From Maribacter vaceletii (GTDB lineage: Bacteria; Bacteroidota; Bacteroidia; Flavobacteriales; Flavobacteriaceae), in the NCBI RefSeq assembly GCF_003634105.1, contig NZ_RBIQ01000011.1, forward strand, positions 62,001 through 126,000: 64,000 nt of DNA, read 5' to 3'. A model generated the notes under the pieces. It saw only the letters and a list, made by a program, of their open reading frames with translations. It did no database searches and had not been told where the DNA came from. How positions within the stretch are numbered: the stretch's first letter is position 1; every line of letters starts with the position of its first letter. Of the stretch, positions 1,366 through 37,242 are shown one piece after another. The position numbers and the translations under genes were made by a program.

Positions 1366-4300
1366 ATGTTACATCATCTTACAATTAATAAATACAAAAC
1401 ATATAGCGGAGTATCTCAGGATATTTCGCTATCCTATCAACTTTTTGGAAAGCCTTTGCATAGTGCGCCAATAGTGCTGGTAAATCATGCTTTAACAGGA
1501 AATTCTAATGTTACTGGTAAAGATGGTTGGTGGTCAGCTATAGTAGGAGAGGGAAAATGTATAGATACGGATACCTATACTATTCTGGCTTTTAACGTTC
1601 CAGGAAATGGATATGATAGTTTTGTAATTGAAAATTATAAAGATTTTATTGCAAGAGATGTTGCAAGAATATTTTTATTGGGACTTAAGGATTTAAAAAT
1701 TTCTAATTTATTTGCTATAATTGGAGGTTCTATGGGGGGTGGTATTGCTTGGGAAATGGCAGCACTAAACCCTAATTTAACAGAGCATTTAATACCTGTA
1801 GCATCGGATTGGAAATCTACAGATTGGTTAATAGGAAATTGCCAAATACAAGAGCAGTTTTTAATTAATTCTAAGCAACCTGTGCATGATGCTCGTATGC
1901 ATGCAATGCTATGTTATAGAACGCCAGAGTCTTTTAATGAGCGTTTTAAGCGTAGTACCAATGAAGAGTTACAGGTTTTTAATGTAGAGAGTTGGTTAAT
2001 GCATCACGGTGATAAATTGAAAGAGCGTTTTCAACTATCGGCGTATAAATTAATGAATCAACTTTTAAAGTCTATTGATATAACTAAAGGTAGAGAAGAA
2101 GCGTTCACTGAACTGCAAAATAGTGAAACTAATATTCATATTGTTGGCGTAGATTCTGATTTGTTTTTTACAGCTAAAGAAAATAGAGAAACGTTTAAGC
2201 AAATTGCACAGGCAAACAGTAATGTTACCTATGGCGAAGTACAATCTTTACATGGGCATGATGCTTTTTTGATTGAGTTTGATCAAATGCAAAAATTATT
2301 GAACCCTATTTTTAATAAAGAAGAGGAGGCTACTAAAGTTAAAGTTTTAAAATTTGGAGGTAAATCTTTAAGTAACGGAGAAGGTTTAGAACATGTTTTA
2401 GATATTATTTTAGATAAAGTAAAGGCAAAAGAAAAAGTTGCTGTGGTACTTTCTGCAAGAGAAAAAGCAACAGACCAATTAGAAGTTATTTTAGAAAAAG
2501 CTGCATCTGGTAAAAGTTATGCAAAAGATTTTGAAGCTTTTGAAAAATATCAAACACACTCTTATAAAAATGTAAATTTATCAAAAGAGTTTGCAAGTTT
2601 GTTTCAGTTGTATGAAGGAGTTGCTTTATTGGGAGATTATAGTTCCAAAATTAAAGATCAAGTTTTGGCTTATGGAGAATTAATATCTGCAAAACTAATA
2701 ACAAAACTATTAATAGGGAAAGGAGTAAAGGCAAAGTTAATGGACTCTAGAAGCCTTATTAATACCGATGATAATTTTGGAGATGCTAGTGTTTTAGAAA
2801 CCGTATCTAAAGAAAATGTATTAAGAGAATTTGGTTTGTTACCACAAGGAACTGTACCTGTTTTTACAGGTTTTATAGCGTCTACTTTAGACGGGGAAAC
2901 AACCACGTTAGGTAGAAACGGAAGTAATTATTCTGCGGCTTTATTAGCTAATTTTTTAGACGCAGCAGAGCTTCAAAATTATACACATGTAGATGGTATT
3001 TATACTGCAAATCCAGATTTTGTAGCAGACGCTAAACGTATTTCTGAACTCTCTTATAGTGAGGCTAATGAATTAGCAAATTTTGGTGCTACTATTTTAC
3101 ATGCCAAAACAATTATTCCTTTAATAGAAAAAAATATTCCTTTACGTATTTTAAATACTTTTAATAGTGATAATGAAGGAACTTTAATTAGTGCTAAAAC
3201 TAGTAAAGATGGTATTAAATCTATTTCTGTTATAGAAAAAGTAGCCTTAATTAATTTAGAAGGTAGAGGACTGCTAGGAAAAGTAGGGGTAGATGCTCGT
3301 ATTTTTAAAGCCTTAGGAGATAGTAATATTAGTGTTAGTATTATTTCTCAAGGTTCTTCAGAACGTGGTATTGGTTTGGTGGTAGATGCAGACATTGCAC
3401 AAAAAGCAAAGCAAGCACTGGATAGGGAATTTACACATGATTATACTTCTAAGGATGTTAATAGAATTACAGTAGTAGGCGATGTTTCTGTTATTTCTAT
3501 TGTAGGTCAAGATTTGAGTACTTTTCATAAGCCATACAATTCTTTAATTAAGAACCAGATAACACCTTTACTATTTAATAATACAGTTACAGGAAAAAAT
3601 GTGAGTTTGGTAGTAAAAAAGACCGATTTGCATAAGGCTGTAAATGTAATGCATGGACAAGTTTTTGGAATGAGTAAAAAGGTTAATATAGCTGTTTTTG
3701 GACATGGAAATGTTGGAGGAACCTTAATAGACCAAATACTAAAGTCTGCAAAAAATATAGAGAAAAGAAAGGGATTAGATTTAAGGGTCTTTGCGGTTGC
3801 AAATTCTAAAAAAGTAGTGCTAAATAAAAAAGGAGTCTCTAAAAATTGGCAATCGTTGCTAGAGAAAAAAGGAGAGTCTTATACCATAAATACTATTTTT
3901 GATTTTTCTAAAAGACATCATTTAGAAAATTTAATTGTGGTAGATAATACTGCGAGTGAAAATTTTGTTGCTAATTATTTCGATTTTGTAGAGAATGGTT
4001 TCGATATTGTCTCATCAAACAAAATAGCAAATACATTAGGGTTTGATTATTATCAACTTCTAAGAGAGGAATTAGCTAAAAATCAGAAGCAATATTTGTA
4101 TGAGACTAATGTAGGTGCAGGTTTACCGTTAATAGATACTATTAAACTTTTGCATTTATCAGGAGAAAATATAACTAGAATAAAAGGAGTTTTTTCTGGT
4201 TCCTTAAGTTATATATTTAATACTTTTTCTGAGGTAAATGCACCATTTTCATCTATTTTAAAAGATGCAATGCAAAAAGGATTTACAGAACCAGACCCTA

Positions 4301-4752
4301 GGGAAGATTTATCTGGAAATGATGTAGGCCGAAAGTTATTGATACTAGCTAGAGAGTTAGAATTACACAATGAGTTTTCAGATGTAAAAATCCAAAATTT
4401 AATCCCGGCTTTATTAGAAAAAGGAGACACTAAACATTTCTTAGATAATTTAGGAATGTTAGACGATACTTTTAACGAGATAAAGAAAAACCAAAAACCA
4501 AATCACGTATTACGTTACGTTGGCGATTTACATGGGAATTTACAAGAAGAAAAAGGAGAGTTAGATGTTAAACTGGTTTCTGTACCTAAAGAAAGCGCTT
4601 TAGGGCAAATAAAAGGCTCGGATTCTATTATAGAAATCTATACAGAATCCTATGGGGAAAATCCATTAGTAATCCAAGGAGCAGGAGCAGGAGCTGCAGT
4701 TACCGCAAGAGGTGTTTTTGGAGATATATTAAGAATTGTAGAAAAAAATTAA
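1366..4752 (+). CDS. thrA: Fusion: homoserine O-acetyltransferase-like domain + aspartate kinase + homoserine dehydrogenase
   Basis: Three enzymes in one 1128-residue chain. Residues 1 to about 320 are a MetX-like alpha/beta hydrolase: nucleophile S122 in GGSMGGG, acid D265 in the GVDSD segment and H298 in HGHDAF form a plausible triad. Residues about 325-590 are aspartate kinase beginning KVLKFGG, where the usual KFGGTS reads KFGGKS. ACT regulatory domains follow (about 600-765). Homoserine dehydrogenase starts near residue 769 with the Rossmann motif VFGHGNVGG and ends with the SGSLSYIFNTF and EPDPREDLSGNDVGRK catalytic segments. Together they take aspartate to aspartyl phosphate, aspartate semialdehyde to homoserine, and probably homoserine to O-acetylhomoserine, the substrate of the upstream metY. 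ThrA-type kinase/dehydrogenase fusions are well known; the extra N-terminal domain is the notable part. Acetyl donor specificity is inferred from the MetY neighbour. Confidence 0.9.
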   Translation: MLHHLTINKYKTYSGVSQDISLSYQLFGKPLHSAPIVLVNHALTGNSNVTGKDGWWSAIVGEGKCIDTDTYTILAFNVPGNGYDSFVIENYKDFIARDVARIFLLGLKDLKISNLFAIIGGSMGGGIAWEMAALNPNLTEHLIPVASDWKSTDWLIGNCQIQEQFLINSKQPVHDARMHAMLCYRTPESFNERFKRSTNEELQVFNVESWLMHHGDKLKERFQLSAYKLMNQLLKSIDITKGREEAFTELQNSETNIHIVGVDSDLFFTAKENRETFKQIAQANSNVTYGEVQSLHGHDAFLIEFDQMQKLLNPIFNKEEEATKVKVLKFGGKSLSNGEGLEHVLDIILDKVKAKEKVAVVLSAREKATDQLEVILEKAASGKSYAKDFEAFEKYQTHSYKNVNLSKEFASLFQLYEGVALLGDYSSKIKDQVLAYGELISAKLITKLLIGKGVKAKLMDSRSLINTDDNFGDASVLETVSKENVLREFGLLPQGTVPVFTGFIASTLDGETTTLGRNGSNYSAALLANFLDAAELQNYTHVDGIYTANPDFVADAKRISELSYSEANELANFGATILHAKTIIPLIEKNIPLRILNTFNSDNEGTLISAKTSKDGIKSISVIEKVALINLEGRGLLGKVGVDARIFKALGDSNISVSIISQGSSERGIGLVVDADIAQKAKQALDREFTHDYTSKDVNRITVVGDVSVISIVGQDLSTFHKPYNSLIKNQITPLLFNNTVTGKNVSLVVKKTDLHKAVNVMHGQVFGMSKKVNIAVFGHGNVGGTLIDQILKSAKNIEKRKGLDLRVFAVANSKKVVLNKKGVSKNWQSLLEKKGESYTINTIFDFSKRHHLENLIVVDNTASENFVANYFDFVENGFDIVSSNKIANTLGFDYYQLLREELAKNQKQYLYETNVGAGLPLIDTIKLLHLSGENITRIKGVFSGSLSYIFNTFSEVNAPFSSILKDAMQKGFTEPDPREDLSGNDVGRKLLILARELELHNEFSDVKIQNLIPALLEKGDTKHFLDNLGMLDDTFNEIKKNQKPNHVLRYVGDLHGNLQEEKGELDVKLVSVPKESALGQIKGSDSIIEIYTESYGENPLVIQGAGAGAAVTARGVFGDILRIVEKN

Positions 4753-4810
4753 CTTCGGCTACGCTCAGTTACCAGTTACATATTACTGTTGGCTGAGCGT
4801 AGTCGAAGCC
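4753..4810. repeat. Inverted pair of the 20-base GGCTGAGCG repeat
   Basis: The unit GGCTGAGCGTAGTCGAAGCC lies at 4791-4810 and its near-complement CTTCGGCTACGCTCAGTT at 4753-4770, only 20 bases apart, so the RNA can form a long hairpin directly after the fusion gene stop. It may act as a transcript end or stabiliser, but there is no following T-run. Further copies lie downstream of the nuclease gene. Confidence 0.8.
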
Positions 4811-4824
4811 ATAACATTTGTAAA

Positions 4825-5133
4825 ATGTCAGGATACATGTATATATTAAAATGTTCAGATGGTAGTTATTATACTGGCAGTACTAAAGATATAGATAGAC
4901 GATTTGTAGAGCATAATGAAGGTAGAGGAGCAAATCATACCAAAAAGAGATTGCCTGTAAAATTGATGTATGTAGAAGAGTATTTACGTATAGGAAATGC
5001 TTTTAAAAGAGAAAAACAAATACAGGGTTGGAGTAGGGCAAAAAAAGAAGCGTTAATTAATGGAGAGTTTGGAATATTACCAAATTTATCCGAATGTAAA
5101 AATGAAACTCATTATAAGTGTTTTAAAGAGTGA
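4825..5133 (+). CDS. GIY-YIG nuclease family protein
   Basis: Small single-domain GIY-YIG protein of 102 residues. The hallmark runs YMYILKCSDGSYYTGS near the N-terminus, followed by DRRFVEHN and then KREKQIQGWSRAKKEALING, which carries the catalytic-type Arg and Glu. The family hydrolyses DNA phosphodiesters; the cellular role of these stand-alone small members is unknown. An in-frame TTG at 4789 would add twelve residues (MAERSRSH...), but those codons are exactly the interspersed repeat at 4791-4810, so the ATG at 4825 is preferred; ATG 4837 is a second choice. The gene is bracketed by repeat copies on both sides and interrupts an otherwise methionine-only cluster, which suggests insertion as a unit. 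The last 20 or so residues after NGEFG look unconserved. Confidence 0.85.
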   Translation: MSGYMYILKCSDGSYYTGSTKDIDRRFVEHNEGRGANHTKKRLPVKLMYVEEYLRIGNAFKREKQIQGWSRAKKEALINGEFGILPNLSECKNETHYKCFKE

Positions 5134-5135
5134 AT

Positions 5136-5300
5136 TTCGACTACGCTCAATTACCCGATAGTATAAGCCAAATAAGTGGTTGCTTCGCGTAACCGAAATA
5201 ATGTTGGCTGAGCGTAGCCAAAATAAAGGTGGCTGAGCGTAGCCGAAGCCAAGAAATATAGAATTGTAGAATAAATGACGGCTGAGCGTAGCTGAAGCCA
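5136..5300. repeat. Cluster of four GGCTGAGCG-type repeats
   Basis: Between the nuclease gene and metZ are one reverse-oriented copy (5136-5153, TTCGACTACGCTCAATTA) and three forward copies at 5206-5220, 5231-5250 and 5280-5299. The last two are nearly perfect 20-mers ending GAAGCC. A degenerate piece (TTCGCGTAACCGAA) lies at 5183-5196. The ends GGCT and AGCC are complementary, so each unit is REP-like. A diverged copy also lies at 33276-33294. Confidence 0.85.
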
Positions 5301-31805: not shown

Positions 31806-32924
31806 ATGAAAAAAGTAAACGTATTCTTAATGGGCTGTTTAGCAGTTGCGGCATTATCATGTTCTAAAGATGATGAAAAGAAATTAGATGAGAACTCAGA
31901 TCCAGACGGGGTTAACAAACAAGAAGAAGTTTTACTAGATGTTAACGCGGTAAGTAGTGGCGTAACTATAGAAGGAGCTACTAAGGTTCAAGGAAGCCCA
32001 GTACCTAGCGGAGATATAGAATTTAGTTTAGATTATGAAAAGCAAACTGCTTTTCAAACCAATGGCTTTAACATAGAATTTAAGGCTCCAGCGGGTTTTG
32101 CAGGTGCGTATGTGCAATTGAAAGATGAAAACGGAATGGCCGATTCTTATTTTGATATTCCTGTAGGAGCTACTTCTGGAGTATATAATAAAGCTGCAAA
32201 AACTTTTGAAAGAGGACTTTTTGCAAATAAAAAATCGGCTAAAAGTAATTTAGCAGGAAAAGGTGAAGACACTTCTATAGATGTAAACTTTGAAGCAGAA
32301 GTTACAGCAGGTACTTTTTGTTATCTAATTTGTGTGTATGATGGTCAAGGAAATATTAGTGAACCAGAAGAGGTTTGTGTAACTGTAGAGTCTTGGGGTG
32401 GTAATACTAACCTTGTTGCAGACTGGGATTTTACAAAAGAGATAGATAATGGAGAAACAATAAATAAAGGAGATGAGTATTGTGATGAAGATAGTTATAC
32501 AACTACTTTAGATTGCGCAAGTGGAGAAGCTAAAGAGATTACAATAGAATATTGTTATACTACAGATAGTTTACTAATGACTTTTAATAGTGATGGTACT
32601 TACGAGTATACTTATAACGATACTGATAGAGATTTTGATTGGGACGCTTCAGAGGAATCTTGTGAAGCAGTTTATGAGGATGAGGAAGAAATATATACCT
32701 CTAAAGGTAATTGGGCGTATAATGAAGAGGAAAGTAAATTAACCTTAGTAGAGTTTGAATACACTGAAACGTATAATGGCGAAACTGAAACGGGAGTAGA
32801 AGAAGAAGGTTATTTAGCTTTTGACGGAGAAATAACTCTTACTGCAGATAAATTAGTTATTATAGAAAAAGATACATACGAAGGAGAAGAAGAAGTGTAC
32901 GAGTATCATTTCAATAAAAAATAA
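31806..32924 (+). CDS. Acidic lipoprotein with lipocalin-like C-terminal domain
   Basis: 372 residues. Signal MKKVNVFLMGCLAVAALSC with lipidated C19, then an acidic linker. Residues about 45-195 form a beta-sandwich-like domain with a regular strand pattern (VNFEAEVTAGTFCYLICVYDGQGNISEPEEVCVTVESW). From about 202 a lipocalin-like segment begins (LVADWDFTKE), with paired cysteines (EYCDEDSYTTTLDC, IEYCYTT, ESCEAVY) that may form disulfides. Very rich in Asp/Glu. No function can be given. Architecture resembles the lipoprotein at 6533-7555. Confidence 0.72.
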   Translation: MKKVNVFLMGCLAVAALSCSKDDEKKLDENSDPDGVNKQEEVLLDVNAVSSGVTIEGATKVQGSPVPSGDIEFSLDYEKQTAFQTNGFNIEFKAPAGFAGAYVQLKDENGMADSYFDIPVGATSGVYNKAAKTFERGLFANKKSAKSNLAGKGEDTSIDVNFEAEVTAGTFCYLICVYDGQGNISEPEEVCVTVESWGGNTNLVADWDFTKEIDNGETINKGDEYCDEDSYTTTLDCASGEAKEITIEYCYTTDSLLMTFNSDGTYEYTYNDTDRDFDWDASEESCEAVYEDEEEIYTSKGNWAYNEEESKLTLVEFEYTETYNGETETGVEEEGYLAFDGEITLTADKLVIIEKDTYEGEEEVYEYHFNKK

Positions 32925-32946
32925 GATAAAAACATATCTTTACTTT

Positions 32947-32977
32947 AAAAGCTCTCCAAACGGAGGGCTTTTATTAT
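32947..32977 (+). terminator. Terminator after the acidic lipoprotein gene
   Basis: AAAAGCTCTCC and GGAGGGCTTTT pair with one mismatch around AAAC, followed by TTATTATTTT. Confidence 0.8.
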
Positions 32978-33117
32978 TTTAATAATTCGCAACAATATTT
33001 GATAAATATAAAATTATTGTTATTTATTGTTGTATAAATTTAAAAATAAGTAAAAATAGAGATTAAAGCTTTTGTTTTTGAATATAATGATTACATTAGC
33101 CAAAGTTTTACAAGAAA
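32978..33117 (+). other. AT-rich region upstream of the Phe/Tyr leader; promoter not identified
   Basis: Part of the 389-base stretch between the lipoprotein gene and pheA. The promoter of the aromatic operon should lie here, but no exact TAnnTTTG with a well-spaced TTG was found. The nearest is TAAATTTA at 33035-33042, 7 of 8, with a poorly spaced TTG. The rest of the stretch holds the leader ORF, the attenuator and one diverged repeat. Confidence 0.5.
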
Positions 33118-33189
33118 ATGACAAATAAATATTTCTTTAACAGTTTTACATTCTATTTCTTTTTTAAAAGAAGTACGGGACTGTTCTAG
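33118..33189 (+). CDS. Phe/Tyr-rich leader peptide of the aromatic amino acid operon
   Basis: 23-codon ORF, ATG to TAG, upstream of pheA. Eight residues are Phe (positions 6, 7, 10, 12, 14, 15, 16, 23) and two are Tyr (5, 13), with the run FTFYFFF at 10-16. This resembles the enterobacterial PheL leader in design, not in sequence. The start lies in an A-rich context (CAAGAAAATG) as for other genes here. It is followed by an intrinsic terminator and then prephenate dehydratase. By analogy to classical attenuators, ribosome pausing at Phe/Tyr codons would sense charged tRNA levels. It is too short to appear as an ordinary gene. Confidence 0.82.
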   Translation: MTNKYFFNSFTFYFFFKRSTGLF

Positions 33190-33245
33190 CATATTTTAAA
33201 ACATATATAGAGTAAAGTTCCGATACATATCGGAACTTTTTTTTT
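33139..33245 (+). promoter_or_regulatory. Transcription attenuator (1:2, 2:3, 3:4 structures) controlling pheA
   Basis: Four segments can pair alternately. Segment 1 AACAGTTTT (33139-33147) pairs with segment 2 GGGACTGTT (33177-33185), six Watson-Crick pairs plus three G-U. Segment 2 CGGGACT (33176-33182) pairs with segment 3 AGTTCCG (33216-33222), including one G-U: an antiterminator. Segment 3 AAAGTTCCGAT (33214-33224) pairs perfectly with segment 4 ATCGGAACTTT (33229-33239), then T-run to 33245: a terminator. Segment 2 spans the end of the leader ORF, and segment 1 lies within it just before the Phe cluster, as attenuation requires. Confidence 0.8.
33214..33245 (+). terminator. Attenuator terminator before pheA
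   Basis: Eleven-base perfect stem with a four-base loop, followed by at least six T. Lies 25 bases after the leader stop codon and 68 bases before pheA. Confidence 0.9.
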
Positions 33246-33275
33246 GATTAAAGTTCAAAGAATTAGCTTTAATAA

Positions 33276-33294
33276 AGCTGAGCGAAGTTGAAGG
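33276..33294 (+). repeat. Diverged copy of the GGCTGAGCG repeat
   Basis: AGCTGAGCGAAGTTGAAGG matches the 20-base repeat family of 4753-5299 with several changes; lies in the pheA leader after the terminator. Confidence 0.6.
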
Positions 33295-33313
33295 ATATTA
33301 GTATATAGCGTAA

Positions 33314-34141
33314 ATGAAATTAAATATAGCCATACAAGGAATAAAAGGGTCTAACCACCACCAAGTAGCAAAAGACTATTTTGGAGAGGATGTAAACTTG
33401 GTAGAATGTTTGTCTTTTGATTTTCTTGTAGATCAGTTATTACAAGGTACAGCAGATAAAGGGATTATGGCCATAGAAAATTCTATTGCAGGTTCTATTA
33501 TTCCTAATTACGCTTTAGTTTACCACAACAATTTGCATATAATAGGGGAACAGTACCTAAATATTCATCATAACCTTATGGTGTTAAAAGGGCAAAAAAT
33601 TGAAGATATTGATGAAGTTAGATCACACCCTATGGCATTGTTACAGTGTAAGGATTTTTTTAGAGCCTATCCCCATATAAAAATGGTAGAAGATGTAGAT
33701 ACGGCAGAAACTGCAAAACAAATACAAGAAAAGCAGTTAAAAAATATTGCGGCTATAGCCCCTAATGTAGCAGCAGAGCTATATGGTTTAGATATAATAG
33801 CACCGGAAATACAAACTATAAAAAATAATTCTACCAGATTTATTATAGTAAAAACAACCAATAAAGAATTACCTAAACAAGAAATTAACAAAGCGTCTAT
33901 ACGTTTTGTAACAGACCATAAAAGAGGAAGCTTAGCAGCCGTTTTAAATGTAATGAGCGATTGTAGGTTGAATTTAACTAAAATACAATCTCTCCCAATA
34001 ATAGAAACACCATGGAAGTATGCTTTTTTTGTAGATATTACTTTTGATAATTATAGTAATTTTGACAAAGCAAAATCGCTCTTAGAGATTATGGCAGAAG
34101 ATTTTAAAGTATTAGGAGAATATAAAAATGCAAGAGCATGA
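33314..34141 (+). CDS. pheA: Prephenate dehydratase (PheA)
   Basis: Converts prephenate to phenylpyruvate. 275 residues: catalytic PDT domain with MAIENSIAGSIIPNYALV (about 52-69) and the STRFIIV motif (about 173-179), then a C-terminal ACT domain (GSLAAVLNVMSDCRLNLTKIQSLP, about 200-223) that binds Phe for feedback inhibition. No chorismate mutase domain is fused to it; that activity sits on the DAHP synthase at the end of this operon. First enzyme gene after the attenuator; its stop overlaps the aminotransferase ATG by four bases. Confidence 0.95.
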   Translation: MKLNIAIQGIKGSNHHQVAKDYFGEDVNLVECLSFDFLVDQLLQGTADKGIMAIENSIAGSIIPNYALVYHNNLHIIGEQYLNIHHNLMVLKGQKIEDIDEVRSHPMALLQCKDFFRAYPHIKMVEDVDTAETAKQIQEKQLKNIAAIAPNVAAELYGLDIIAPEIQTIKNNSTRFIIVKTTNKELPKQEINKASIRFVTDHKRGSLAAVLNVMSDCRLNLTKIQSLPIIETPWKYAFFVDITFDNYSNFDKAKSLLEIMAEDFKVLGEYKNARA

Positions 34142-35283
34142 TTACTACTGCAGATAGATTAAAAACAGTTGAAGAATACTACTTTTCAAAAAAATTAAGG
34201 GAAGTACGTGGCTTAATAGCAGATGGTAAACCTATTATAAACATGGGTATAGGCAGCCCAGATTTGGCACCTTCTAAAGAAGTTATTACTGCGGTGACTA
34301 ATTCTTTAGAAGACGCAAATGCGCACCAGTACCAAAGCTACCAAGGGTTGCCAGAATTGCGTGAGGCAATTGCGGATTTTTATAATGCTAAGTTTAAAGT
34401 AGCGCTAAATCCTGTAAATGAAATTTTACCTTTAATGGGCTCTAAAGAAGGTATAATGCATATTTGCATGGCCTTTTTAAATCCTGGAGATCAAGTTTTA
34501 ATTCCAAATCCAGGATATCCAACCTATACTTCTGTAACTAAATTAGTTGGGGCAGAAGCAAAGCAATATAACTTATCTGCTAAAAATGGTTGGTTTCCAG
34601 ATTTAAAAACATTGGCAAAAGAAGATTTATCTAAAGTTAAACTAATGTGGGTAGGTTATCCGCATATGCCTACAGGAGCAACAGCATCTAAAGAACAGTT
34701 AAAAGAGCTTGTTCAATTTGCAAAGGAACATTCTATTTTGTTGGTAAATGATAACCCATATAGTTTTGTGTTGGGTACTAACCCTACCAGTATTTTGTCA
34801 ATTAAAGGCTCTAAAGAAGTAGTTCTGGAATTAAATTCTTTAAGCAAAACATTTAATATGGCTGGTTGGCGTGTAGGAATGGTTATGGGGAGTGCAGAAA
34901 ATATTAATGCTATTTTAAAAGTAAAGAGTAATATGGATTCTGGAATGTTTTACGGAATTCAAAAAGGAGCAATTGCAGCATTACAAAGCGGGGACGAATG
35001 GTTTAGTGGGTTAGATCAGGTATATACTTCGCGTAGAAATTTAATGTATCAATTAGCAGATAAGTTAAATTGTGAATATGATAAGAGCGCAGTAGGTATG
35101 TTTGTCTGGGCAAAACTTCCGTTGGGCATTGTATCTTCAGAAGATTTTGTAAATGAAGTTTTATACGATAAAGATATATTTATAGCCCCAGGAACTATAT
35201 TCGGTAGTAATGGTGAAGGCTACATTAGATTTTCATTATGCGTAACGGAAGAAAAAATAAAAGAAGCAATAGCAAGATTTTAA
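34138..35283 (+). CDS. Class I/II aminotransferase, probable aromatic aminotransferase
   Basis: 381-residue PLP aminotransferase. The lysine that binds PLP is in SLSKTFNMAGWRVG (about 240-253), with NMGIGSPDLAPS (about 36-47), YQSYQGLPELREAI (about 62-75) and the C-terminal IRFSLC Arg. Placed between pheA and tyrA, it is most likely the transaminase that makes Phe and Tyr from phenylpyruvate and hydroxyphenylpyruvate. Sequence alone resembles the LL-DAP/aspartate aminotransferase-like subgroup, so substrate choice rests on context. ATG overlaps the preceding stop; next gene follows after four bases. Confidence 0.88.
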   Translation: MITTADRLKTVEEYYFSKKLREVRGLIADGKPIINMGIGSPDLAPSKEVITAVTNSLEDANAHQYQSYQGLPELREAIADFYNAKFKVALNPVNEILPLMGSKEGIMHICMAFLNPGDQVLIPNPGYPTYTSVTKLVGAEAKQYNLSAKNGWFPDLKTLAKEDLSKVKLMWVGYPHMPTGATASKEQLKELVQFAKEHSILLVNDNPYSFVLGTNPTSILSIKGSKEVVLELNSLSKTFNMAGWRVGMVMGSAENINAILKVKSNMDSGMFYGIQKGAIAALQSGDEWFSGLDQVYTSRRNLMYQLADKLNCEYDKSAVGMFVWAKLPLGIVSSEDFVNEVLYDKDIFIAPGTIFGSNGEGYIRFSLCVTEEKIKEAIARF

Positions 35284-35287
35284 TAAA

Positions 35288-36154
35288 ATGAATGTATTTG
35301 TAATTGGTATAGGATTAATAGGTGGTTCCATGGTAAAAGACATTAAGCGCTTAATGCCTAATGTTACTATTTATGGGATTGATGCAAAACAGGAGCATAT
35401 AGATGAGGCATTGTCGTTAGGAATAATAGAAGAGCAAGCAAATTATAGTCAATTACCAATTGCAGATGTAGTAATTGTAAGTATTCCAGTAGACGCAATG
35501 ATTAAAGAGCTTCCAAAAATACTAGATGCAGTTAATGATGATTGTGTTGTTTTTGATGCAGGTTCTACTAAGCTACAAATATGTAAAGTATTAGATGAGC
35601 ACCCAAAAAGAAGAAATTTTTTGGCATGCCACCCTATTTCGGGGACGGAATTTTCAGGGCCATCAGCAGCAATTAATGGGTTGTATGAAGGGAAAACAAA
35701 TATTATTTGCGAAGTAGAAAAAACAGCTTTTAAATTACAAGAAAGAGCATTAGAGCTTTTTCAGACTTTAGGAATGCGTATTAGGTATATGAATCCAGAA
35801 GCGCATGATAAACATATAGCATATGTATCACATTTGTCACACATAAGTTCCTTTATGTTAGGAAAGACGGTTATTGAGAAAGAAAGAAATGAACGTGATA
35901 TTTTTGACATGGCGGGAAGTGGTTTTGAGAGCACAGTTCGTTTAGCAAAAAGTTCACCAGCTATGTGGACACCTATTTTTAAACAAAATAAAGAAAATGT
36001 GGTGGAAACTTTAGAAGGGTATATTAAGAACCTAACCGAATTTAAAAAGATGTTGTTGGCAGACGATTATGATGGAATTTATAATGAAATGAATAACACC
36101 AATAAAATAAAAGAAATATTAAACGGAATACCACAAACAAAGAATAAAGTATAA
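35288..36154 (+). CDS. tyrA: Prephenate dehydrogenase (TyrA)
   Basis: 288-residue NAD(P)-dependent enzyme giving 4-hydroxyphenylpyruvate. Rossmann start VIGIGLIGGSMVKDIKR (about 4-20), the substrate segment ACHPISGTEFSGPSAA (about 115-130) with the conserved His, and AYVSHLSHISSFMLG (about 179-193) with catalytic His. No ACT domain is present, so Tyr feedback may act at DAHP synthase or through the operon's attenuator. Confidence 0.93.
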   Translation: MNVFVIGIGLIGGSMVKDIKRLMPNVTIYGIDAKQEHIDEALSLGIIEEQANYSQLPIADVVIVSIPVDAMIKELPKILDAVNDDCVVFDAGSTKLQICKVLDEHPKRRNFLACHPISGTEFSGPSAAINGLYEGKTNIICEVEKTAFKLQERALELFQTLGMRIRYMNPEAHDKHIAYVSHLSHISSFMLGKTVIEKERNERDIFDMAGSGFESTVRLAKSSPAMWTPIFKQNKENVVETLEGYIKNLTEFKKMLLADDYDGIYNEMNNTNKIKEILNGIPQTKNKV

Positions 36155-36159
36155 GTAAA

Positions 36160-37242
36160 ATGAAGAATTCAAAAGAAATGAGAACATGGTTGGATGACAT
36201 GCAGCTAGATCATCCACTAGTAATAGCAGGGCCATGTAGTGCTGAAACAGAAGAGCAAGTTTTAAAAATTGCTCATGAATTAAAGGATACCGATGTAAGT
36301 TATTACAGAGCAGGTATCTGGAAGCCAAGAACTCGTCCAGGGAATTTTGAAGGCGTAGGTATTTTAGGGCTTAAATGGCTACAAAAAGTAAAAGCAGAAA
36401 CAGGTATGAAAACCTGTACTGAAGTTGCAAATAGAGCACACGTAGAACTGGCTTTAGAACATGATATTGATTTATTATGGATTGGTGCTCGTACTTCTGT
36501 AAGTCCGTTTATCATGCAAGAAATTGCAGATGCACTAGCAGGTACAGACAAAATAGTTCTAGTAAAGAATCCAATTAACCCAGATTTATCATTATGGTTA
36601 GGTGGTATAGAGCGTTTGCATACTGCGGGTATTAAAAATTTAGGAGCAATACACAGAGGTTTCTCTACCTATGAGAAAACTAAATATAGAAACATTCCGG
36701 AATGGCAATTAGCTATTGAGTTTAAAAACAAATTTCCAGATTTACCATTAATAAACGATCCATCGCATATTACAGGTAATAGAGAAATGATTTTTGATGT
36801 TTCGCAAACTGCATTAGATCTTAATTTTGATGGACTAATGATAGAAACACATTTTGATCCAGATAATGCTTGGAGTGATGCTGCGCAGCAGGTTACACCA
36901 ACAAAACTAGTTCAAATAATGAAAGATTTAAAAATTAGAAAAGAATCTGATCCAGAAGCAGAGTATAATAAAGAGTTAACAAATTTACGTGCACAGATTG
37001 ATGTTATTGATAATCAATTAATAGAATCTTTAGGGAAGCGTATGAAGATTTCTGATAGTATTGGAAAACTTAAAAAAGAGAAAAACGTTGCAGTATTACA
37101 AAGCAATCGTTGGAACCAGATTTTAGGCGCTATGATTTTAGAAGGAGAATCTAAAGGATTAAGTGAGGAGTTTGTTTTAAGAATGTTTAAAGCAATTCAC
37201 CAAGAGTCTATCAATCATCAAGAGAAGATTGTAAATAACTAA
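36160..37242 (+). CDS. Bifunctional DAHP synthase / chorismate mutase
   Basis: 360 residues. N-terminal type I-beta DAHP synthase (VIAGPCSAETEEQVL at about 21-35, GIWKPRTRPGNFEGVG at 48-63, DPSHITGNREM at 207-217, GLMIETHFDP at 226-235) condenses erythrose-4-P with PEP. From about residue 268 a fused AroQ chorismate mutase follows (LRAQIDVIDNQLIESLGKRMKISDSIG, then LQSNRWNQIL). The order is synthase-mutase, as in the Porphyromonas gingivalis enzyme and opposite to the Bacillus mutase-synthase. It gives the operon both the entry step and the branch step to prephenate. Last gene before a strong terminator. Confidence 0.93.
   Translation: MKNSKEMRTWLDDMQLDHPLVIAGPCSAETEEQVLKIAHELKDTDVSYYRAGIWKPRTRPGNFEGVGILGLKWLQKVKAETGMKTCTEVANRAHVELALEHDIDLLWIGARTSVSPFIMQEIADALAGTDKIVLVKNPINPDLSLWLGGIERLHTAGIKNLGAIHRGFSTYEKTKYRNIPEWQLAIEFKNKFPDLPLINDPSHITGNREMIFDVSQTALDLNFDGLMIETHFDPDNAWSDAAQQVTPTKLVQIMKDLKIRKESDPEAEYNKELTNLRAQIDVIDNQLIESLGKRMKISDSIGKLKKEKNVAVLQSNRWNQILGAMILEGESKGLSEEFVLRMFKAIHQESINHQEKIVNN

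Follow-up and report, generated by a model that had tools for sequence, protein, structure and literature searches.

The window, by which is meant the whole 64,000-nucleotide stretch of DNA that was analyzed, carries a four-gene operon in which pheA is followed by genes for an aminotransferase, a prephenate dehydrogenase (tyrA), and a DAHP synthase fused to a chorismate mutase (DAHPS/CM), with Pfam domains PDT, Aminotran_1_2, PDH_N/PDH_C, and DAHP_synth_1 plus CM_2 across the four products. The genome is that of a marine Maribacter-type bacterium, and the closest named PheA loci, at 96% identity, are from uncultured Maribacter. Ahead of pheA lies a short leader ORF and a set of alternative RNA pairings, and the features are as follows.

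33071 to 33074, + strand: probable -33 element TTTG, at a position that suits a start near 33104
33092 to 33099, + strand: probable -7 box TACATTAG (Bacteroidota consensus TAnnTTTG), with one mismatch and conserved spacing
33118 to 33189, + strand: leader peptide ORF MTNKYFFNSFTFYFFFKRSTGLF including the stop, read directly and kept in 152 of 170 loci
33130 to 33165, + strand: control codons Y5 F6 F7 ... F10 T F12 Y13 F14 F15 F16, as tabulated codon by codon for the 73 distinct leaders in the 23-codon clade
33139 to 33147, + strand: segment 1 (partner 33177 to 33185), from the MFE structure, with its own 1:2 pairing stronger than permuted pairings over 76 loci
33176 to 33185, + strand: segment 2, within the last leader codons, from the swap test, fixed-register pairing, and ribosome masking
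33214 to 33224, + strand: segment 3, the 5' arm of the terminator and also the partner of segment 2, from swap and fixed-register pairing and the terminator scan
33229 to 33245, + strand: segment 4, the 3' arm of the terminator (33229 to 33239), then the T-run to 33245, from the sequence and the terminator scan
33314 to 34141, + strand: pheA, prephenate dehydratase (PF00800)
34138 to 35283, + strand: class I/II aminotransferase (PF00155)
35288 to 36154, + strand: tyrA, prephenate dehydrogenase (PF02153, PF20463)
36160 to 37242, + strand: DAHP synthase fused to chorismate mutase (PF00793 and PF01817)

The leader ORF runs from an ATG at 33118 to a stop codon at 33187-33189 and codes for a peptide of 23 residues with 8 Phe and 2 Tyr (10 of the 23 codons). 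The core of the 1:2 pairing is AACAGT (33139-33144) with the complementary ACTGTT (33180-33185), the 2:3 pairing joins CGGGACT (33176-33182) to AGTTCCG (33216-33222) with one G-U, and the 3:4 pairing joins AAAGTTCCGAT (33214-33224) to the complementary ATCGGAACTTT (33229-33239), with a T-run at 33237-33245; the operon begins 68 nt past the end of this run. The antiterminator (2:3) and the intrinsic terminator (3:4) are mutually exclusive, and the terminator (33214-33239) is one of two terminator-like sites in a stretch of 500 nt, where 0.1 is expected. Folding of the leader RNA, which the initial annotation had suggested as a check, gives -29.8 kcal/mol (z of -3.2), more stable than every one of 200 dinucleotide shuffles. 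The same annotation had claimed the gene order, the 23-codon ORF with its 8 Phe and 2 Tyr codons, and the three pairings with the T-run; Pfam confirms the genes, direct reading bears out the ORF, and the pairings prove exact to the base at all coordinates.

A strong intrinsic terminator at 32946-32973 ends the upstream gene (31806-32924), and the pheA leader is therefore transcriptionally separate. In 52 of 76 representatives, compared with 4% in shuffles, the box TAnnTT[TA]G is present 18 to 40 nt ahead of the leader start, and its spacing peaks sharply at 25 to 29 nt, giving a conserved box at a fixed distance from the leader ORF that is consistent with a promoter. PMC9723704 places the sigma-A consensus TAnnTTTG at -12 to -5. 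Transcription is predicted to start at about 33104, which would put 14 untranslated nt ahead of the leader ATG. A separate feature of the neighborhood is a short repeat, GAGCGNAGTYGAAGG, with six matches in the window (at most 2 mismatches; 0.27 expected), five of which are clustered at 4752-5298 behind the gene at 1366-4752, with the sixth at 33280-33294, between the putative attenuator and pheA.

Conservation of the leader and its stems

The pheA-upstream regions of 170 loci were compared, 110 from close to moderately distant relatives (with seven or so genomes counted twice) and 60 others, mostly sampled from the class Bacteroidia. A leader was scored where at least 5 of 8 residues are F, Y, or W and a terminator precedes pheA, with at least 6 of 8 as a stricter density. 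The Phe/Tyr-rich ORF is conserved, as the initial annotation had anticipated, with aromatic-rich leaders and terminators at 152 of the 170 Bacteroidia loci, or 145 at the stricter density, counts that, with the loci related by descent, are not independent. All 152 leaders have a terminator with a T-run; they extend down to about 40% PheA identity, and some use G+C-richer codons. No aromatic leader was detected at L022, L212, L218, L261, L262, and others among the 170 loci. The spread in leader length and sequence shows much turnover with the design retained. A phylum-wide search found a leader at one of the 30 loci scanned (L354, itself of the class Bacteroidia) and none at the other 29, nearly all of which are from non-Bacteroidia classes.

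Because the region is A+T-rich and TTT and TAT are common, the Phe/Tyr codons could be a by-product of composition, with the stem being an ordinary terminator of upstream transcription. Among 850 dinucleotide-shuffled upstream regions, however, 65 reach 5 of 8 aromatic residues and just 6 reach 6 of 8, none of the latter with a terminator, and a control of 1.3 Mb of real sequence contains 16 aromatic-dense ORFs, several of them pheA leaders themselves. The single Bacteroidia leader among the 30 phylum-wide loci and the separate terminator of the upstream gene also speak against this explanation, which is contradicted by conservation and covariation and is scarcely credible. The ORF and its stems are not due to chance.

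Selection on the leader is evident at the codon level. Codons 5, 6, 7, 10, and 12 to 16 are almost always aromatic (F, Y, or W) in the 73 distinct leaders of the 23-codon clade, codon 11 is aromatic in most of them, and third bases vary while the aromatic positions persist; among single-base codon variants at the aromatic positions of this clade, 13 of 19 are still aromatic, compared with 20 of 99 possible changes. A short ORF rich in codons for the operon's products is found class-wide.

The stems covary. Near-duplicates were removed to give 76 representatives for swap tests, in which the mean 2:3 energy is -13.7 kcal/mol with a leader's own partner and -9.7 ± 0.26 with permuted partners (none of 5,000 permutations falls below -10.6), and the corresponding 1:2 energies are -18.4 and -13.6 ± 0.36. 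Joint changes of segments 2 and 3 include CGGGAC/GTCCCG, CGAGAC/GTCTCG, GAGGCTT/AAGCCTC, and AGCGGTC/GACCGCT. When codon number sets the register of segment 2 and the terminator that of segment 3, the 2:3 core positions of the 23-codon clade are paired in 43 to 49 of 49 distinct combinations, with two-sided G-C to A-T changes among the core pairs; exceptions come mainly from six loci with a differing terminator base (an A before the T-run), which shifts the register by one. Covariation was counted by fixed registers and swaps and not by an alignment pair counter because a MAFFT alignment of 47 leaders shifted the arms of the terminator by 1 or 2 bases from one clade to another. By both measures, the compensatory changes that had been proposed as a check are present. 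Amino acid-level conservation would also suit a functional, hydrophobic small protein with a hairpin that merely ends its own small transcript, but this is very unlikely, as the C-terminal part covaries with segment 3, the peptide shows little conservation from clade to clade outside the aromatic run, F, Y, and W are interchangeable, and the conservation of 2:3 would be left without a role.

Ribosome position and the putative attenuation mechanism

In the 76 loci, segment 2 typically begins 11 to 14 nt downstream of the first base of the last aromatic codon, counted with this codon in the A site, which is about where the front edge of a stalled ribosome is expected from its footprint. When the ribosome is modeled in the window as masking A-15 to A+12, all seven 2:3 pairs are free up to and including codon 16, which is the run's final Phe, four are free at codon 17, and none from codon 18 onward; a ribosome that has reached the stop covers segment 2, and the terminator alone forms. 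Segment 2 is thus free on stalling at the control codons and covered at the stop, and the geometry initially proposed, with segment 2 in the last codons and a stall releasing 2:3, fits both the masking and the spacing. Equilibrium folding of the full-length RNA favors the terminator at most stall positions, including F16, so read-through must depend on 2:3 forming first; classical attenuators likewise rely on the order of synthesis.

The pheA leader is, with high confidence, interpreted as a putative ribosome-mediated transcription attenuator. Its parts, covariation, geometry, and codon-pathway match are established at the level of sequence and comparison, and the promoter start, ribosome-polymerase coupling, and the response to Phe and Tyr are predicted. 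Transcription would begin near 33104, with immediate translation of the leader ORF. When charged tRNA-Phe and tRNA-Tyr are plentiful, the ribosome would pass the aromatic codons to the stop and cover segment 2, and the 3:4 terminator would form. In a shortage, it would stall on one of the aromatic codons no later than F16, where it covers segment 1 and leaves segment 2 free to pair with segment 3 before segment 4 is made, and the polymerase would enter pheA-aminotransferase-tyrA-DAHPS/CM. Were the leader not translated, 1:2 and 3:4 would form and transcription would stop. Tight coupling of ribosome and polymerase in Bacteroidota is an assumption of this scheme.

Control could instead act through translation or through protein or small-molecule binding, for which the sequence leaves room in some relatives and for which the Thr-rich thrA leader of this genome, with no obvious terminator, offers a parallel. 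At pheA such control is very improbable, since a terminator with a T-run accompanies every one of the 152 leaders and the switch point matches ribosome occupancy.

Amino acids probably sensed and genes probably served

Operon content was compared for 59 operons, with the closest relatives set aside. Of the 47 that include DAHPS/CM, 43 have the leader, versus 1 of the 12 that lack it, and this one leader-bearing operon without DAHPS/CM (L245) lies where the stretch that was read stops at a contig end; in four DAHPS/CM operons (L212, L218, L261, and L262) no leader was found. Leaderless loci of the class sample mostly lack DAHPS/CM in the operon. Leader presence has no association with tyrA among these 59 operons, and the idea that the Tyr codons reflect an operon-borne tyrA was rejected, the Tyr fraction being 0.151 with tyrA and 0.176 without it. 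On the simplest interpretation, the leader serves the DAHP synthase/chorismate mutase, which feeds Phe and Tyr together. The enrichment of both codons, originally ascribed to an operon needing both amino acids, therefore stands, although it is explained better by DAHPS/CM than by tyrA.

Codon 7 is Trp in 53 of the 73 distinct leaders of the 23-codon clade and Phe or Tyr in 19, and the species of the window has F7 where most of its close relatives carry Trp; across the representatives, Trp is present in 39 of 76 leaders. These counts, together with the tracking of DAHPS/CM by the leader, hint that the leader, in an operon that holds the shikimate-entry DAHP synthase, reads Phe, Tyr, and Trp, which would extend the best explanation and not oppose it. 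We advance this only tentatively, as there is a single Trp codon, early in the run, Trp is missing from the window and from about half of the representatives, and TGG may be retained for 1:2 pairing with segment 2 or the stop region. By the same token, a Bacteroidia-wide attenuator family that senses Phe and Tyr (and Trp in most close relatives) and controls shikimate entry via DAHPS/CM is conceivable, if still rather speculative. If true, such a class-wide aromatic-sensing family would mean that ribosome and polymerase are coupled closely enough to allow attenuation in the Bacteroidota, a phylum largely without Shine-Dalgarno initiation.

Other amino acid leaders and known systems

Leaders of other operons were sought on both strands in this genome and its relatives. 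The same genome has a His-rich leader, MRNKTTHHHFHTGCQAR (with HHHFH), followed by a terminator before hisG (L122:1200-1253, + strand), and His-rich leaders are present in 15 of 15 searched genomes having hisG. A trpE leader of the same genome, MRNNKTNIWWWSNLRKTS (L179:2027-2143, - strand), contains WWW and has a terminator; it is matched by RF01692 Bacteroid-trp at 57.7 bits (cut-off, 49). This genome also has an Ile/Val-rich ilvD leader, MKITKTLVSIIIVPLLG, which is followed by a strong terminator, AAGCCTGTATCATATAATTATGATACAGGCTTTTTT (L133, minus strand), and similar ilvD leaders are present in several relatives. Upstream of thrA there is a Thr-rich ORF, MYDKITDILFSTLTNGTTTIGTTTPLG (L264:256-339, + strand), with Thr-rich counterparts in L265, L266, and L270; the thrA leaders have a conserved CCCC-GGGG hairpin that sits on the stop codon or directly ahead of it, with no obvious terminator, and perhaps represent another kind of leader control.

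Because leader codons match the product across four pathways, the attenuation mechanism, itself textbook, is strongly supported. The matching His, Trp, and Ile/Val leaders suggest that attenuation is one of the main controls of amino acid operons in Flavobacteriia, and jointly with the pheA leader they would allow transcription-translation coupling in Bacteroidota to be tested on a genome scale.

No Rfam family scores above its cut-off at the pheA leader site. RF01859 Phe_leader, from enterobacterial pheA, shares the Phe-rich ORF, the 2:3/3:4 alternatives, the terminator before prephenate dehydratase, and the working principle, but the site in the window reaches 26.8 bits where the cut-off is 55 (E of 0.019), and it differs in having Tyr and often Trp codons mixed in, an operon with tyrA and DAHPS/CM, and a Bacteroidota-type promoter. 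In E. coli, Phe is the only amino acid read by the pheA leader. RF01692 Bacteroid-trp is a leader-peptide RNA family of the same phylum, differing in that it reads Trp before trp genes, and it has no gathering-level match anywhere in the window, the pheA leader included.

Little literature on flavobacterial attenuators was found, and the initial annotation knew of none described for pheA. That holds in part: the excerpted text of a 2021 transcriptome study of Flavobacterium psychrophilum (PMC9723704) points to a structured element in the 5' region of pheA that has no match in Rfam and is conserved in other genera of the Flavobacteriaceae, and to "strong clues" for leader-peptide attenuation of amino acid operons. 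Attenuators of this kind are known, and those excerpts note the pheA case, for the same gene in the same bacterial family, in passing; they describe the element with no account of its segments or codons and no range wider than the family. The present analysis adds the anatomy, the covariation, the ribosome geometry, the class-wide spread, and the tie to DAHPS/CM, giving a precise model of aromatic amino acid regulation with base-level predictions for a large and little-studied class.
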